Assembly: GCA_030916925.1 (NCBI GenBank)
Contig: JAUPVU010000051.1
Span: 1 to 6,540 of the forward strand
DNA length: 6,540 bases
Source of the DNA: Patescibacteria group bacterium
GTDB taxonomy: Bacteria > Patescibacteriota > WWE3 > 2-01-FULL-39-13
Direction of reading: 5' to 3'
Shown here: piece after piece, positions 1 through 6,540 of the stretch
Numbering within the stretch: the first letter of the stretch is position 1
Layout of the letters: the number at the start of each line of letters is the position of its first letter
Notes under the pieces: model-generated
What the model saw: the letters and a program-made list of their open reading frames with translations, nothing else
The model's database searches: none
Told to the model about the DNA's origin: nothing
Translations under genes and position numbers: made by a program

Positions 1-2487
1 AAGTACTTTCGACTGCTTTATAGAATAGTTGTAAAAGTTAGTCACAAATTTGGCTTTTTACAAATGTTCAGAAGTTTGTTTAAGCCACTGTTTGGTACAC
101 CTGGGATTGGTTCTCGTTTCCAAGGATTTATTATTAGATCCACAGCACTTTGTGTAAGCATGATTGTCTTAGTAGTTATAGCGGTTTTTGGTGTCTTGAT
201 GTATCTTTCATTTTTTGCACTTGTATTTTACGCATTTAAATCAAATATAATTCTCGGCTTGTCTTATTTAGGACTAATCATTTTAATTAAGATTTTGAAT
301 TATACTTATTATCCCATTCAACCTATAAAAAATTATGACCGGTTGGATGAATATGCGAACACTGGAGATATTACCCATCGAAGCTTTCTTCGAAAAATTC
401 ACAATTCAGAATATAAAGAGGCTCTTGATCAGTTATTTACAAATAAGTATGTAATTGATTTTCTATCTCGGTCTGAATTGGATGCAATTAAATTAAAGAA
501 ATTTCTGGATGAGCAAATAAATAACTATAAGCCTGCAGATTTTATGTATAGAATGGTTGAAATAAACCAAATAGTTAAATTTAGTCATATTAAGCATCAA
601 CTATTTTTAGTGACTTTAATTTTATTATGTGATGCGGATGAGAGATATTTGTCTTCACTAAATCTAGACAGCAACACACTATTGAAATATCTAAAATTTA
701 CATCCTTCTATATCAAGCACGATCACTATATTTGGCAGGATGAATATCAGCTTCCTCCCTCAGGAGGTTTGGATAAGGACTGGGCAGTTGGATATACAGG
801 TGTGTTAAATCGGTCAGGAACGGATTTAACTAAATTAGCCTTAAAAGGGATGATGCCAAGATTGGTTGGAAGAAGTGATGTTAAAAATAATGTAATATCG
901 GCACTGACAAAAAATTCCCGAAACAATGTCCTAATCGTTGGTGAGCCAGGTTGTGGAAAAACAACCTTTGTTAAGGCATTATCCCGTGAAATTGCTCTTG
1001 GAACATCTATTCCACGGTTAAAATACAAAAGAATATTTTCACTTGATATTGGATCTTTAACCTCTGGTACACAGGGGGAGATTAATAATAGATTGGTGAA
1101 AATTATCAAAGAATTAGAATCTTCAAGAAATGTAATTGTTTTTATCGATGAGATACATTCAATTTCCTCAAACTCAAGCGAGGATCCCAATGCTGTCCCA
1201 ATATTCTCGGTGCTTGAGCCATATCTGTCAGATGGAAGATTTCAGTTTATCGGAACCACTTCCAAGAAAAATTATAATAAATATATAGCTGCAAATGGTT
1301 CATTCGCCAAAGCGTTTGAAATTGTCGAAATGAGATCTGCAAATGAAATGGAGACTTATGAAATTATGGTGGATTCGATGAAGAGTACTGAGTCCAAGGC
1401 TTCAATTAGGATTTCATATTTAGCCTATTTAAATTCTTATAACTTTGCTGGTAGATATATTGCGACTAGAACTTATCCTGATAGTGCAATCGAGCTACTT
1501 AACCGAGCAATATCGGTGTTATCAAAAAATAATTCAGTAATCACTGGTGAAGACATAGCCAATGTTGTTTCTAGTTTATTTAAAGTTCCTGTTAACGCAA
1601 TAAATGATGATGAATCTGCGAAGCTACTAAATATTGAAAGTGTTTTACATGAACGAGTTATTGGTCAAAATGCAGCAATTACTGCTATTTCAAACGCTCT
1701 GAAGCGAGCTCGTGTTCGTATAAGAGATCAGCAAAAACCAGTAGCTAGCTTTTTATTTGCTGGCCCTACAGGAGTTGGTAAAACTGAAACAGCAAAAGCG
1801 TTGGCTGAATTATATTTTGGAAGTAATGATTATATGGTCCGAATTGATATGTCAGAATTTAATGACCCTCTTTCGGTAAATAGATTAATTGGTGATTCCA
1901 GAAATCCAGGCCAACTTTCAACTCCAATTAAGGATCGTCCTTATTCGCTGATTTTGTTAGATGAAATTGAAAAATCCGCAAATGAGGTTCAAAACTTATT
2001 CCTTCAAATACTTGATGACGGAAGGCTGACGGATGGAGATGGTAATTTGGTCAACTTTACCAATACTATTATTATCGCTACTACTAATTCAGCAACAAAA
2101 GAAATTACAGCATCGCTTGCAGCAAATCCTGATCAAACGGATTTATCTGTTATGACTTTGGATGTTTTGAAAAAGTATTTTCCAATGGAGTTTCTAAATC
2201 GTTTTAACAACATTATCCCATTTACCCCACTTAGTAGAGATGAAATTAAACAGATTGTTAGAATTAAATTAAATAAATTAGCAGAAAGATTATCATCCGA
2301 ATATAAAATTAAAGTCACTTTTGCAGCCACAGCTATTGATCAGATTGCAAATGAAGGTTACTCTGTCGAATGGGGAGCCCGCCCGGTAAATAGAGTCATT
2401 GAGGATAAAGTAGAAACTAATATTGCCCAAAAAATAATCCAAAAAGAACTTCAACCCGGAGACACCTATGAATTTACAACGATATGA
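1..2487 (+). CDS. Membrane-anchored ClpA/ClpC-type double AAA+ ATPase (5' end open)
   Basis: A two-ring AAA+ ATPase, probably acting at the cytoplasmic face of the membrane; substrate unknown. Residues are numbered from the ATG at 64 (807 aa). Residues 26-78 are strongly hydrophobic (two or three membrane segments) and stand where Clp proteins carry a Clp-N domain. Residues 85-260 are an unrecognised, largely helical region. D1 starts at LVGR (267-270), with Walker A GEPGCGKT (293-300) and Walker B DEIH (362-365). D2 starts at VIGQ (532-535), with Walker A GPTGVGKT (567-574), Walker B DEIEK (633-637), sensor-1 Asn675, arginine finger FLNR (R713) and sensor-2 GAR (R773). There is no ClpB middle domain. 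Both pore loops lack their aromatic residue, the D1 arginine finger is missing and no ClpP-docking tripeptide is seen. The frame is open to base 1 and ATG 64 has no Shine-Dalgarno, so the true start may lie upstream. It overlaps prfB by 4 bases. The AAA+ family call is secure; an unfoldase role is not. Confidence 0.9.
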   Translation, partial: KYFRLLYRIVVKVSHKFGFLQMFRSLFKPLFGTPGIGSRFQGFIIRSTALCVSMIVLVVIAVFGVLMYLSFFALVFYAFKSNIILGLSYLGLIILIKILNYTYYPIQPIKNYDRLDEYANTGDITHRSFLRKIHNSEYKEALDQLFTNKYVIDFLSRSELDAIKLKKFLDEQINNYKPADFMYRMVEINQIVKFSHIKHQLFLVTLILLCDADERYLSSLNLDSNTLLKYLKFTSFYIKHDHYIWQDEYQLPPSGGLDKDWAVGYTGVLNRSGTDLTKLALKGMMPRLVGRSDVKNNVISALTKNSRNNVLIVGEPGCGKTTFVKALSREIALGTSIPRLKYKRIFSLDIGSLTSGTQGEINNRLVKIIKELESSRNVIVFIDEIHSISSNSSEDPNAVPIFSVLEPYLSDGRFQFIGTTSKKNYNKYIAANGSFAKAFEIVEMRSANEMETYEIMVDSMKSTESKASIRISYLAYLNSYNFAGRYIATRTYPDSAIELLNRAISVLSKNNSVITGEDIANVVSSLFKVPVNAINDDESAKLLNIESVLHERVIGQNAAITAISNALKRARVRIRDQQKPVASFLFAGPTGVGKTETAKALAELYFGSNDYMVRIDMSEFNDPLSVNRLIGDSRNPGQLSTPIKDRPYSLILLDEIEKSANEVQNLFLQILDDGRLTDGDGNLVNFTNTIIIATTNSATKEITASLAANPDQTDLSVMTLDVLKKYFPMEFLNRFNNIIPFTPLSRDEIKQIVRIKLNKLAERLSSEYKIKVTFAATAIDQIANEGYSVEWGARPVNRVIEDKVETNIAQKIIQKELQPGDTYEFTTI

Positions 2488-3488
2488 ATCTAATCGACAG
2501 ATCTAATCAAATACTATCCAGCCTAAATAAGTCAGCTGTAATTACTGAGCTTAATGAAATTGAGAAGCAAATGAATACAGATGGATTTTGGTCAGATATT
2601 ACTTCTTCTTCTAAAATATCCCAACAATACAATAATCTTAAGAAAAAGCTTGATTCAATTGAATTATTGGAGATGGCTGTTTCCTCCAATGACGAAAAAC
2701 TTCTTACCGAATTAGTCGAAAATAACGAAATAATTTTATACCTATCCGGGCCGTATGATAAAAATAATTGTTATCTGTCAGTGTTTGCTGGTGCTGGCGG
2801 TACAGAGGCTCTAGATTGGGCTGAAATGTTACTACGTATGTATATGAGGTATGCGGAGAGAAAAGGGTGGGAAGTTGGCCTAATCGATAAAACCGATGGG
2901 GATGAAGCCGGAATCAAGACGGCTACTATTAAGATTAGTGGCGAAAATCTCTATGGATTTCTTAAATCCGAGAATGGTACGCATAGACTGGTAAGGCAAT
3001 CACCTTTTAACGCTCAAAATTTACGTCAAACATCATTTGCTGGAGTGGAGGTAATACCTGAAATTGAAGATTCAGGCGACATCATAATAAAGGATGAGGA
3101 TTTACAGTTTACAACTATGCGAGCCGGAGGAGCTGGAGGGCAACACGTCAATAAAAACGAAACAGCAGTTCGTATAAAACACCTACCATCAGGAATTGTT
3201 GTTGCTAGCCAACAAGAAAGAAGTCAAAATAAAAATCGAGAGATTGCCATGCGAATGCTAATGTCTAAACTTGTTAAGTTAGAAAATGAAAAATTGGAAC
3301 TTGAGAAAAAAAATGTGAAAGGTGAGCATAAGACGGCTGGATGGGGTAACCAGGTTAGATCTTATGTTTTGCAACCTTATAAACTTGTTAAAGATCATCG
3401 AACAGAAGTTGAATCGACAAACCCTGACGATGTTCTTGATGGTAATTTAGATCAATTTATAAGGGCAGGATTGAAGCTAAATAATTAG
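2484..3488 (+). CDS. prfB: Peptide chain release factor 2 (RF2)
   Basis: RF2 recognises UGA and UAA stop codons in the ribosomal A site and triggers hydrolysis of the finished peptide. The 334-residue product has the helical domain 1 (about 1-90), then the GAGGTEA(L)DW block near 103-113. The SPF tripeptide that reads the second and third stop-codon bases in RF2 is at residues 173-175, and the catalytic GGQ is at 218-220 within GAGGQHVN. The C-terminal DGNLDQFI block also matches RF2. RF1 would have PxT instead of SPF, so RF2 is clear. It is slightly shorter than E. coli RF2 (365 aa), mainly at the N-terminus. The reading frame runs through the usual +1 programmed frameshift region with no in-frame TGA, so the autoregulatory frameshift is absent. 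Its ATG overlaps the preceding stop (ATGA) and no Shine-Dalgarno is close, which suggests translational coupling. It ends with TAG, which is read by RF1, not by RF2 itself. Confidence 0.97.
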   Translation: MNLIDRSNQILSSLNKSAVITELNEIEKQMNTDGFWSDITSSSKISQQYNNLKKKLDSIELLEMAVSSNDEKLLTELVENNEIILYLSGPYDKNNCYLSVFAGAGGTEALDWAEMLLRMYMRYAERKGWEVGLIDKTDGDEAGIKTATIKISGENLYGFLKSENGTHRLVRQSPFNAQNLRQTSFAGVEVIPEIEDSGDIIIKDEDLQFTTMRAGGAGGQHVNKNETAVRIKHLPSGIVVASQQERSQNKNREIAMRMLMSKLVKLENEKLELEKKNVKGEHKTAGWGNQVRSYVLQPYKLVKDHRTEVESTNPDDVLDGNLDQFIRAGLKLNN

Positions 3489-3503: not shown

Positions 3504-3508
3504 AATTG

Positions 3509-4018
3509 ATGTTAATGGAACCTGCTCTATCAAACGGAAAAACTGAAAATCCGTTGGATGATAATGCCATTCAAGCACTGGAAACCGCATTCCAGCAAGA
3601 TATCACCAACCCAAAAAAAGAAACTCAAGGTTCGAGGTTCAAAGTTGTATTCGTTATTTTACTATTATTAATATGTGGTCTAGGGATATTATATTTCGCA
3701 AGTACCTTGTTTACAAATAACGATCAACTGCCAGAAAATAACTTAGTTCCGACTTCGAATAACGCTGTTGCTAAGATTCGAGGATCTAATAAGGAAATAA
3801 AGGATTTATTTGGTAAAGTATTTACAACTAATGAGTTAGGTATTGATTATCAGTATGAGTTAGTTAAGCCGAATGGAGAAAAATTGGGTTATCTTGCTTC
3901 CGAAAAGCTAGATTTGTCTTTAGTTGTAGGGATGACCGTATTTATAGATGGCACGACAAACAAAATGATAAACGAGATTCCTGTTATAGTTGTAGAGTCA
4001 GTAGAGTTTAGTAAATAG
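3509..4018 (+). CDS. Small single-pass membrane protein of unknown function
   Basis: I do not recognise this family. From ATG 3509 it is 169 residues: a polar N-terminal tail (about 1-43), one clear membrane helix (about 46-68, rich in Leu/Ile/Val, preceded by RFK), an Asn/Pro-rich linker (about 69-88) and a C-terminal domain of about 80 residues. The positive charges before the helix and the acidic, polar tail place the C-terminal domain most likely outside the cytoplasm. That domain alternates short beta-like stretches, with GKVFTTNE, a YELVKPNGEKLGYL segment, GMTVFIDG and PVIVVESVEF, which resembles a small beta-barrel of OB or SH3 type; this is inference from pattern only. Starts at TTG 3506 or ATG 3515 are also possible; none has a Shine-Dalgarno. 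It lies 20 bases after prfB and 1 base before ftsE, so a role beside FtsEX at the envelope is a reasonable guess. Confidence 0.85.
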   Translation: MLMEPALSNGKTENPLDDNAIQALETAFQQDITNPKKETQGSRFKVVFVILLLLICGLGILYFASTLFTNNDQLPENNLVPTSNNAVAKIRGSNKEIKDLFGKVFTTNELGIDYQYELVKPNGEKLGYLASEKLDLSLVVGMTVFIDGTTNKMINEIPVIVVESVEFSK

Positions 4019-4019
4019 C

Positions 4020-4712
4020 ATGTCAGATAAAATTATTGAATTTAAAAATGTAACAAAAGTTTACGATGATGGAACTATGGGTTTGGATAATGTCGATTTA
4101 TCTATTGATAAAGGTGAATTTATTTTTTTAATAGGTGCATCAGGCGCCGGTAAAACTACCCTAATGGAACATATCGTAAGAGAAGAAATCCCAACAAGCG
4201 GTAATATTACGATTGATGGGATTGATTTGGGCAGTATTAAGAAGAAAGAGATTCCAACATTAAGACGCAAAGTTGGTTTTATTTATCAAGATTTTAAATT
4301 ACTCGGATCAAAGAACGCATTTGAAAATATTGCTTTTACGTTAGAAGTGGCCGATAAAACAGATGAAGAAATTAATAAGTTAGTTCCGAATTTACTACAT
4401 CTTGTGGGGTTAAGTGGTGCTGAGAAGAAATTTCCAAATCAACTTTCAGGTGGAGAAAAGCAGAGACTTGCGATTGCAAGAGCTCTAGCTAGTGAACCTC
4501 AAATAATACTAGCCGATGAGCCGACCGGCAATCTGGATAGAAGTTCATTGTGGATAGTTGTAGATTTGATTAACAAGATTAATGAATGGGGCACAACTAT
4601 TATCTTTGGAACGCACGACTATGAAATAGTTAATACGTTAAAGAAGCGTGTTGTACATCTCGATAAAGGAAAAATAATTTCAGATAAAAAGGAGGCAAAA
4701 TACGATGATTAG
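4020..4712 (+). CDS. ftsE: Cell division ATP-binding protein FtsE
   Basis: FtsE is the cytoplasmic ATPase of the FtsEX complex, which belongs to the type VII (MacB-like) ABC group and works by mechanotransmission rather than transport. ATP hydrolysis here changes FtsX shape and so switches on cell-wall hydrolysis outside. The 230-residue length is typical. All ABC motifs are intact: Walker A GASGAGKTT (39-47), Q-loop Q90 in IYQDFKLL, signature LSGGEKQR (142-149), Walker B ILADEP with D166 and catalytic E167, D-loop NLD (171-173) and H-loop H199 in GTHD. The YQDFKLL stretch after the Q-loop is characteristic of FtsE. The start lies 1 base after the preceding TAG and has no Shine-Dalgarno, so it is probably translated by coupling. 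Its 3' end carries the ribosome binding site for ftsX and overlaps that gene by 8 bases. A LolD/MacB-type ATPase is the alternative, but the ftsX partner next door settles it. Confidence 0.96.
   Translation: MSDKIIEFKNVTKVYDDGTMGLDNVDLSIDKGEFIFLIGASGAGKTTLMEHIVREEIPTSGNITIDGIDLGSIKKKEIPTLRRKVGFIYQDFKLLGSKNAFENIAFTLEVADKTDEEINKLVPNLLHLVGLSGAEKKFPNQLSGGEKQRLAIARALASEPQIILADEPTGNLDRSSLWIVVDLINKINEWGTTIIFGTHDYEIVNTLKKRVVHLDKGKIISDKKEAKYDD
4690..4695 (+). promoter_or_regulatory. Strong Shine-Dalgarno site for ftsX
   Basis: AGGAGG, preceded by A-rich sequence, sits within the last codons of ftsE, 9 bases before the ftsX ATG at 4705. It is the only consensus Shine-Dalgarno found at a gene start in this window; the other starts have none. 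It fixes the ftsX start and suggests that FtsX synthesis is initiated independently rather than only by coupling to FtsE. Confidence 0.85.
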
Positions 4713-5583
4713 TAGAGTTTTTAAGAAAGCCTTCGCGAATGTGACACGTAGCGGTTGGCGAGCATTTATGATTACTTTTATGATGACTATAACCTACACA
4801 ATGCTAGGTCTATTGTTGTTAGTACTTTTTTTCTCAACTCAACTTGCAAGATTTTTCGTTGAAAAGCCTGAAATAATTGGTTTTTTTAATGAAGGTGTAG
4901 AAGAAGAGAAAATCTTAGAAGTTAAAAACGAACTTGAAAATAAACCATTTGTAGTAGAGGTGTCATACGTTTCAAAAGAAGAAGCCCTGGAATCGTTTAT
5001 CGAAGAGAATAAGGATAACCAAGAAGTTTTGGAGAACTTAACTGTAAATCCATTTCCTGCACATTTAAACGTAAAAGTTGATTCGCTAGACAAAATCGAA
5101 GAAATCGCCACCTATTTTAATAATAATGACAAAATATCTGATGTGATAGATTCACTTGGTGTTGTTGATACATTAAGAAAAATCGTTACTGGTATACAAA
5201 TATTTGGAATTGGATTACTAGTGATATTTTCATTCGCTACATTTATGTTGGTATTTTTAGCAATTGGGTTAACAATTTATTCACAGCGGGATGAACTAAG
5301 AGTTATGAAATTAGTTGGAGCGTCGAATTGGTATACAAGAGGTCCCTACATTGTTCAAAGTCTATTGTATGGAATCGTATCCTCTTTGATTGCTTGTTTG
5401 ATAGTTGGAGCTTTTATATATTTTCAGTACAACAATGTTGTATCGTCATTGCTTGGAGCACTTGAAGTAAAAGGGATTGGTTTACAAGATATTATAATAG
5501 GTTTTAGCATCCAAATTATGTTTGCTGTATTCCTCTCTTGGTTAAGTAGCTATATTGCCACCAAGCGATATATTTCATATTAA
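4705..5583 (+). CDS. ftsX: Cell division protein FtsX (permease-like subunit)
   Basis: FtsX is the membrane partner of FtsE and passes the ATPase signal to an extracytoplasmic cell-wall hydrolase or its activator. The 292 residues show the expected layout: cytoplasmic N-terminus, TM1 (about 20-44), an extracytoplasmic domain (about 50-160), TM2 (about 167-191), a cytoplasmic loop, TM3 (about 220-240) and TM4 (about 263-284). The loop after TM2 reads RDELRVMKLVGAS (195-207), the family hallmark near the FtsE contact. The outer domain carries the familiar segments FFNEGV, a VSYVSKEEALE stretch and NPFPAHLNVKV, which match the PLD-type domain of FtsX that binds the coiled-coil partner. The start is supported by AGGAGG 9 bases upstream. 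It overlaps ftsE by 8 bases in another frame and ends 3 bases before the coiled-coil M23 gene, its likely binding partner. Confidence 0.96.
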   Translation: MISRVFKKAFANVTRSGWRAFMITFMMTITYTMLGLLLLVLFFSTQLARFFVEKPEIIGFFNEGVEEEKILEVKNELENKPFVVEVSYVSKEEALESFIEENKDNQEVLENLTVNPFPAHLNVKVDSLDKIEEIATYFNNNDKISDVIDSLGVVDTLRKIVTGIQIFGIGLLVIFSFATFMLVFLAIGLTIYSQRDELRVMKLVGASNWYTRGPYIVQSLLYGIVSSLIACLIVGAFIYFQYNNVVSSLLGALEVKGIGLQDIIIGFSIQIMFAVFLSWLSSYIATKRYISY

Positions 5584-5586
5584 AAT

Positions 5587-6540
5587 ATGATGTTCGAGAG
5601 ATTAGTAAAAAGAGAATACATAAGATTGTTAGTCATCCTCGTATTAATAATTTCAGTAGGGTTTATTGCTTTGCATATTAATTCTGTATTTGCACAAACT
5701 ACAGATAATGGTTCAACCTCACTTGAACAACAAATCAAAGATTTAGAAAAGAAGATTGATAGCACAAAGAATCAAGCGCAAAGTTTGTCGAAAGAAATAT
5801 CCAATTTACAAAATAATATTGATCTAAAGACCGTTCAAATTAAACAAGCCGAATATGAAATTGATAGAAAACAAAAAGAGTTGGGTATTTTGAATGAGGA
5901 TATAAAACTCATGGAGATTAGACTAGATAGGTTAGATGAAAGAATTTTATATCATGAAGATCTATTGTCAGAGAGAATTAAACAGCAATATATAGATAAG
6001 AAACATAGTATGCTTGAGGTTCTAATTGATTCGGATGGGTTTGGAGGGTTTTTCGCAAAGCTTAATTACTTGGATCGAATACAGGCAGAAGATAAAGTTT
6101 TAATTGATAAGATGTCTTCAACAAAAGGCAATTACGAAGATCAACAAGAACTCTTAGAAGATAAAAAAAATGAAGTAGAGGAGATAAAAAAACAAATTGA
6201 AAGTCAAAAAGCGCAAGCTGAAGGTCTAAAGGTTAGTTTAGAATCTCAGAAAAATGAAAAAGATAGTTTGCTTAGTGTAACTAAGAACAATGAGAAAATA
6301 TATCAAGACTTATTAGAGGATGCAAAGAGAGAACTATCTCAGATCCAAAATGCTGCTTCAACGGTTATTAGAACAGGTGAAGGCGAAAAAGTAAAAAAAG
6401 GCGAAGTCATTGGTACCATGGGAAATAGCGGTTTTTCAAGTGGAGCTCATCTACACTTTAGTGTATATAAATATTCGCGGGAGGATTTCGAAGATGAATC
6501 CAGATGGGGTTGGTATTATAGTAATTACACGGATCCAAAG
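5587..6540 (+). CDS. Secreted coiled-coil protein with partial M23/LytM domain, EnvC/PcsB/CwlO-like (3' cut)
   Basis: Likely the peptidoglycan hydrolase, or hydrolase activator, controlled by FtsEX. The frame stays open to the window end (318 residues seen). Residues 1-36 are a signal peptide: basic start, hydrophobic core at 14-28, probable cleavage after SVFA (A36). Residues 46-254 form a long charged coiled coil. Within it, MLEVLIDSDGFGGFFAKLNYL (142-162) matches the hinge found in PcsB, CwlO and EnvC coiled coils. Residues 257-318 look like the end of an M23 domain: KVKKGEVIGTMGNSG, then SSGAHLHFSV with the HxH pair H288/H290. The earlier half of a normal M23 domain, with the HxxxD zinc ligands, is absent: there is no histidine between H140 and H288. 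It may follow beyond the window (permuted) or be lost. The start can be M1 (5587) or M2 (5590); there is no Shine-Dalgarno and ftsX stops 3 bases upstream. NlpD-like proteins are the alternative, but location favours an FtsX partner. Confidence 0.9.
   Translation, partial: MMFERLVKREYIRLLVILVLIISVGFIALHINSVFAQTTDNGSTSLEQQIKDLEKKIDSTKNQAQSLSKEISNLQNNIDLKTVQIKQAEYEIDRKQKELGILNEDIKLMEIRLDRLDERILYHEDLLSERIKQQYIDKKHSMLEVLIDSDGFGGFFAKLNYLDRIQAEDKVLIDKMSSTKGNYEDQQELLEDKKNEVEEIKKQIESQKAQAEGLKVSLESQKNEKDSLLSVTKNNEKIYQDLLEDAKRELSQIQNAASTVIRTGEGEKVKKGEVIGTMGNSGFSSGAHLHFSVYKYSREDFEDESRWGWYYSNYTDPK

Follow-up and report, generated by a model that had tools for sequence, protein, structure and literature searches.

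How does a peptidase domain work when it begins with its C-terminal half? The question is raised by the last gene of contig C39 in the draft genome of a Patescibacteria group bacterium of the WWE3 lineage (690,471 bases in 110 contigs, 88% complete). We analysed this whole contig (JAUPVU010000051.1, 6,540 nucleotides), hereafter the window, which ends at position 6540 within a gene lying directly behind ftsX. This partner gene most probably encodes a coiled-coil partner of FtsEX whose circularly permuted M23 domain forms one predicted zinc peptidase, likely to cut peptidoglycan at division under the control of FtsEX. Our verdict from the sequences is thus an FtsEX partner of the EnvC/PcsB type with a circularly permuted, predicted active M23 head. 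Labels beginning with G, L and C denote genomes, loci and contigs.

We first consider what the window itself contains. The partner protein matches the Pfam model Peptidase_M23 (PF01551) well above chance, and the match is confined to its C-terminal half, with profile positions 56-91 of 96 aligned to residues 262-297 (E-value 2.7e-9, 37.5 bits for a cut-off of 28.7). The initial annotation had placed this half straight after the coiled coil, which is borne out by the profile positions, the HLH motif and the chain end YYSNYTDPK; the translation also includes KVKKGEVIG from residue 268 (nucleotide 6388). It had stated as well that no histidine lies between residues 140 and 288. This is correct, as histidines occur at residues 30, 123, 140, 288 and 290 and nowhere else, and HxH is the only M23 motif that the window reaches. 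In ordinary M23 domains, the second histidine of HxH binds zinc and the first has been proposed to activate water, and two extra histidines are described beside the zinc ligands (sections of PMC9662197). Two features expected of an FtsEX partner are present too. The N-terminal coil is of the PcsB/EnvC kind, with a match to Pfam CC_PcsB at residues 115-184 (28.3 bits for a cut-off of 27), and the gene is encoded with ftsEX in the order ftsE-ftsX-partner, its start codon 3 bases behind the ftsX stop codon. Three NCBIfam FtsX models match the FtsX protein, all under their own cut-offs. Elsewhere in the genome, contigs C107 and C52 hold two further M23 matches, each running as one ordinary stretch through the Pfam model.

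The initial annotation had left two options, either a non-catalytic half-domain resembling a degenerate activator, or a circular permutation with an HxxxD segment past position 6540 in the same open reading frame (ORF). A search of the genome with the partner protein found a 20-residue overlap, 95% identical, at the end of contig C57. There the frame passes through DPINYL, a linker, EWPMTNPRITQ, HPALD and YWHLR to a stop codon, and so provides the HxxxD segment, on a contig that we assign below to a sibling strain. Behind this piece lie genes for proteins of 99, 324 and 93 residues. The same three genes follow the permuted gene in G004, a genome of the same family, and the first two follow it in G003, where the fetched stretch stops. 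We therefore place contigs C39 and C57 on either side of a gap in a single locus. No second HxH or complete second M23 domain follows the N-terminal half in contig C57 or in the relatives printed; a full second domain downstream, which would have pointed to a duplicated remnant, did not appear.

Relatives show the same order in a single frame. The C57 piece was matched in 42 of the 143 genomes searched, including its own, and in 29 loci (L014-L042) coil, C-terminal half, linker and N-terminal half lie in one frame, with the coil end missing in two. By motif, the permuted order reads coil, VKKGE..HLHF..DPxxYL, linker, WP..ITQ..HxxxD..YWHL. In the alignment of these loci (A1), no row lacks either histidine of HxH, the histidine or aspartate of HxxxD, or the terminal histidine (positions 46, 48, 133, 137 and 182). 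Two protein-database searches with permuted queries returned 211 and 226 relatives. All 240 among the best 120 of each search are permuted and carry the HxH, HxxxD and terminal-histidine patterns, and 238 end two residues past the last histidine; having been found by permuted queries, they measure the uniformity of the family and not its frequency. Candidate division WWE3, Roizmanbacteria and Microgenomates are among the named sources. Alignments of 135 and of 117 of the 240 relatives, two sets that overlap, show no variation at the five catalytic residues; in relative P0001 these are H283, H285, H370, D374 and H419. The permutation option is thus supported by the N-terminal half on contig C57 and by dozens of single-ORF relatives with the same order, while the half-domain option is weakened by the catalytic patterns. 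A degenerate half-domain was rejected on the grounds that relatives go on to the N-terminal half and retain the catalytic patterns. The loss of catalytic residues that marks degenerate LytM activators (EnvC, NlpD) is not seen in the aligned relatives. Because the catalytic motifs are kept in relatives, we predict that the permuted head is an active peptidase, unlike that of EnvC.

Where was the domain cut? Profile matches to ordinary M23 structures give the two pieces in reversed order. In 9gy1, profile positions 124-177 end at residue 91 and positions 16-61 begin at residue 92, and the switch falls at 198|200 in 6jmx and at 315|317 in ShyA. Conversely, the Pfam M23 model matches permuted relatives with 53.8-87.3 bits, each in two stretches. 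For example, the last residues of the L402 protein (324-372) correspond to profile positions 5-52, and residues 262-291 of the L016 protein to positions 61-90, the second stretch being present in both. The new chain ends thus lie just past the HL of the YxHL motif, while a linker of 3 to 28 residues, mostly 14 to 28 and in some cases 3 to 6, connects the old ones (first locus set, where the pattern was found on both sides). These matches show a clean circular permutation and not a shuffled fragment. The relatives have a significant match to PF01551 and the HxxxD, HxH and YxH motifs, and lack the canonical order in which HxxxD precedes HxH. Given this reversed order, we name the protein a circularly permuted M23 relative, not an ordinary member.

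Three observations weigh against a permuted, active peptidase. The first is that contigs C39 and C57 differ at 7 of the 63 bases they share, which leads us to assign C57 to a sibling strain within the bin and not to the same read path. Together with an ORF that stops at the contig end, this inexact overlap could suggest a half-domain remnant or an artefact of assembly. We give this explanation next to no credence, because full-length permuted ORFs are present in single-contig genomes, e.g. G021 and G028, and G003 and G004 conserve the order of the genes on both sides of the break. For the family, it is already refuted.

The second observation is the lack of motifs in some members. All motifs are kept in 55 of the 58 untruncated, distinct permuted ORFs of the first locus set, five further ORFs cut by the locus end having been set aside; L184 lacks HxH, L268 lacks HxxxD and L185 has a broken N-terminal half. 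The L185 partner (2165-3286, genome G010) breaks off at the HxxxD region and is either a degenerate copy or the product of a sequencing error. The losses in L268 and L184 would suit a domain that folds and acts as a non-catalytic activator, recruiting a separate amidase as EnvC does. EnvC is also the closest full-length architecture: the sequence profile of the relatives matches the coils of the EnvC structures 8hd0 and 6tpi, and the best Foldseek match of the full-length model P0001 is 8tzl, the FtsE/FtsX/EnvC complex of Vibrio cholerae (rank 1, E-value 2.2e-3). We nevertheless find an activator improbable, as the invariance of the catalytic residues and their patterns in all 240 relatives speak against it, and EnvC itself is named among the members without a complete set in the part of PMC9662197 that bears on this.

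The third observation concerns the predicted structures. AlphaFold2 gave confident models of two relatives, with a mean predicted local distance difference test (pLDDT) score of 87.0 and a predicted template-modelling (pTM) score of 0.64 for P0001 (421 residues), and scores of 91.4 and 0.79 for the domain-rich P0027 (251 residues), modelled as a single chain. For the domain-rich model, no M23 chain was found among the best 50 Foldseek matches or in the VIA rows. Both searches depend on chain order; the absence fits a changed order and by itself proves nothing on the fold. The halves might also assemble in trans, as a domain-swapped dimer with ordinary contacts. The sequences are compatible with such an exchange, and some linkers of 3 to 6 residues could favour it; most linkers have 14 to 28 residues, however, and the model of P0027 is a confident single chain, albeit from monomer modelling only. 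We regard trans assembly as quite unlikely, somewhat more so than the activator, and retain the single-chain permuted peptidase.

We then asked how frequent the permuted order is, using a two-profile test of order on ORFs as control. The best 80 genome loci of the scan held 82 canonical and 3 permuted ORFs, the latter from a Patescibacteria bacterium, a Microgenomates bacterium and an entry titled only 'bacterium'. In the best 80 viral loci, all 78 classified ORFs were canonical; this set hence gives no permuted M23 ORF that would point to a phage origin. The 50 whole genomes behind the genome loci yielded no permuted match at E <= 1e-14 beyond the same three, and rare permuted cases outside Patescibacteria may still exist. 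Within the phylum, we scanned 379 genomes with the alignment and obtained many matches over the full length of the permuted profile, besides partial ones that may also be ordinary M23 domains. Permuted ORFs occur in at least 83 genomes with 34 family codes, among about 390 genomes of which part were read. This number is a lower bound and not a census of the phylum; it includes the genome of the window, with its two contig pieces, and 82 genomes with single ORFs.

Of the 81 genomes in which the position relative to ftsX was testable, 78 have a permuted ORF at most 500 bases behind that gene (the case of the window's own genome resting on the two contig pieces), the exceptions being G257, G135 and G245. 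In G245, a 210-residue permuted M23 protein without a long coil (L260, 4391-5020) lies about 1 kb behind the ORF of the FtsX partner. The domain FtsX_ECD was matched in 354 of 379 genomes, and 100 regions were fetched. In the family, order and class of the window, 26 of the 30 other genomes with an FtsX match have a permuted partner directly behind ftsX, if L185 with its broken N-terminal half is counted. The remaining four carry another head; three were scanned, two of which match C39-like peptidases and the third the coil model only.

Other heads also occur in the phylum. We picked 60 regions by hand down the FtsX score list (L220-L279), from which some genomes known to be permuted had been moved to another set, making the permuted share, if anything, low. 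These regions comprise 10 permuted partners (L269 included), 5 canonical M23 partners, 21 other ORFs of at least 300 residues, and 24 with a shorter ORF or none. Among the 21 others, 14 match CHAP, 5 match C39-like peptidases and one is an unrelated epimerase. Ten regions selected for a permuted match (L210-L219) were left out of these shares, and 40 further regions, selected for M23-type matches, contain 29 permuted and 13 canonical ORFs. Coil proteins with a CHAP or C39-like head were observed behind ftsX in L186, L202, L223, L227, L229, L235 and L237. Since such heads take the place of M23 on coil proteins behind ftsX, members of the phylum have exchanged heads on a common type of rod. A canonical ORF adjoins ftsX in 5 of the 20 genomes that have one in the fetched loci, and G066 carries a tandem pair of canonical M23 genes behind ftsX (L224, 330-2749).

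How might FtsEX control such a head? In EnvC, a helix known as the restraining arm precedes the LytM domain and occupies its groove as long as FtsEX is not acting (described in part of PMC7668044). PcsB and RipC are inhibited and freed via the coil, their linkers being 22 and 52 residues long (passages of PMC11627006). The two M23 halves of the partner are predicted to enclose a single zinc ion. If the partner works like EnvC, PcsB and RipC, its coil would bind the extracellular domain of FtsX and keep the head inhibited, and ATP binding by FtsE would release the head. Between the last coil landmark and the domain, 76 permuted ORFs have a median of 16 residues and no Gly/Pro, while the values for 17 canonical M23 ORFs of Patescibacteria are 42 residues and 4 Gly/Pro. 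The comparison is rough, because the domain start was set by a different rule for each order and the landmark failed in part of the canonical rows (0 or 1). The coil appears to enter the permuted domain with almost no flexible linker, which is suggestive only. Since this stretch is short and free of Gly/Pro, the rod would be stiffly joined to the head beside the active site, and force transmitted through it could open the enzyme. It is conceivable, though we hold it rather doubtful, that the permutation is itself a control device, yielding a mechanically gated peptidase that possibly arose repeatedly at one cut point in Patescibacteria. The coil would then be welded to the strand that leads into the catalytic HxH, with the other catalytic histidine on the free C-terminus. 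With both chain ends beside the active site, a pull on the coil would open or distort the zinc site.

The permutation may have arisen once or more often. We built trees from the two halves set in canonical order; these rest on short alignments (113-133 columns), from which we dropped near-duplicates, rows without a found motif and, for other phyla, all canonical rows after the first 45 (first tree) or 26 (wider set). When the junction residues are included, a branch with support 95/95 sets the 52 permuted rows apart. If the junction is trimmed, the tree requires 2 changes. On removal of three long-branch rows, 49 of the 50 permuted rows group together, L268 lies among the canonical ones, and the starred branches force 2 changes. 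The wider set needs 3 changes and places 52 of 59 permuted rows in one group, which also holds 3 canonical rows; there, the approximately unbiased (AU) test does not reject a single permuted clade (p = 0.253). Canonical coil-M23 partners also exist in the phylum. In G101 (L389, 506-2993) and G127 (L394, 1243-3663), permuted and canonical coil-M23 genes adjoin on one strand, and such side-by-side pairs are a possible window on how the permutation arose.

The features of the locus are listed in Table 1. Two further genes were noted in the genome. Upstream of ftsE, positions 3506-4018 encode a likely membrane protein of 170 residues without Pfam or NCBIfam match at E 0.001, and contig C103 (L012, 503-2371) encodes a SpoIID-domain protein with an N-terminal coil similar to that of the partner (27% identity).

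Table 1. Features of the ftsEX locus in the window and its continuation on contig C57 (positions are those of the window unless a contig is given).
Feature	Position	Strand	Evidence
FtsE, ATPase of the FtsEX complex	4020..4712	+	ABC_tran E 1.1e-34; NCBIfam FtsE TIGR02673 261.4 bits, just below the 264.85 cut-off
FtsX, membrane partner with extracellular domain	4705..5583	+	FtsX_ECD E 1e-18 and FtsX permease domain, both over cut-off
FtsEX partner gene, 5' part, 318 codons	5587..6540	+	frame open at the contig end, without stop
Partner N-terminus, hydrophobic, likely signal or membrane anchor (residues 1-36)	5587..5694	+	sequence reading
Partner coiled-coil rod with PcsB-like segment (about residues 46-253, approximate limits)	5722..6345	+	CC_PcsB at residues 115-184; helices in models of two relatives
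M23 C-terminal half, placed first	6370..6477	+	Pfam PF01551 positions 56-91 of 96
H-L-H motif, H288 and H290	6448..6456	+	translation; roles by analogy with ordinary M23 (PMC9662197)
Start of the segment joining old C-end to old N-end; also the stretch common with contig C57	6478..6540	+	56/63 bases identical
M23 N-terminal half, continuing outside the window	C57:6099-6485	minus	frame continues from the shared stretch

M23 peptidases are among the best-studied cell-wall enzymes. The partner shares with the M23B or LytM/lysostaphin family (PF01551) both halves, the YxH histidine and the two zinc motifs (HxxxD, HxH), but its halves are reversed, and its new chain ends lie just after YxHL where those of ordinary members lie outside the domain. 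With EnvC of Escherichia coli and V. cholerae, its top match in the PDB by sequence profile and, for the full-length model, by Foldseek, it shares a coiled-coil hairpin and, by prediction, a head of M23 fold and FtsX as partner. The LytM domain of EnvC differs in its canonical order and incomplete catalytic set, and in acting through the activation of amidases. The combination of a coil, here with a PcsB-like Pfam match, and a predicted catalytic head under probable direct FtsEX control recalls PcsB, RipC and CwlO, whose heads are cysteine hydrolases in place of a permuted M23 domain. This holds for the head of CwlO. It also holds for those of PcsB (CHAP) and RipC (NlpC/P60) (passages of PMC11627006). 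Natural circular permutation is described for another cell-wall hydrolase superfamily, NlpC/P60 (YaeF/G6R, LRAT-like), which has an unrelated cysteine-peptidase fold and for which the portion of PMC6403190 at hand states no link to FtsEX. A metallopeptidase-like domain with a permuted winged-helix domain, as given in the title of PMC4000134, is a different case. We found no permuted M23 domain in the titles and beginnings of abstracts on M23/LytM permutation or on FtsEX in Patescibacteria or the candidate phyla radiation (CPR), a partial coverage with few subscription papers or preprints, and the main text of an M23 review (PMC9662197) holds no word beginning with 'permut'.

These results bring to light a permuted M23 domain that is widespread in one phylum, at the FtsEX site of the division machine, and has been hidden in annotation as an M23-family match or a hypothetical protein. 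The FtsEX rod of this phylum bears at least four kinds of heads (permuted M23, canonical M23, CHAP and C39-like). The permuted partners offer a natural test of how force passes from FtsEX to a hydrolase, which is still an open problem of cell division.
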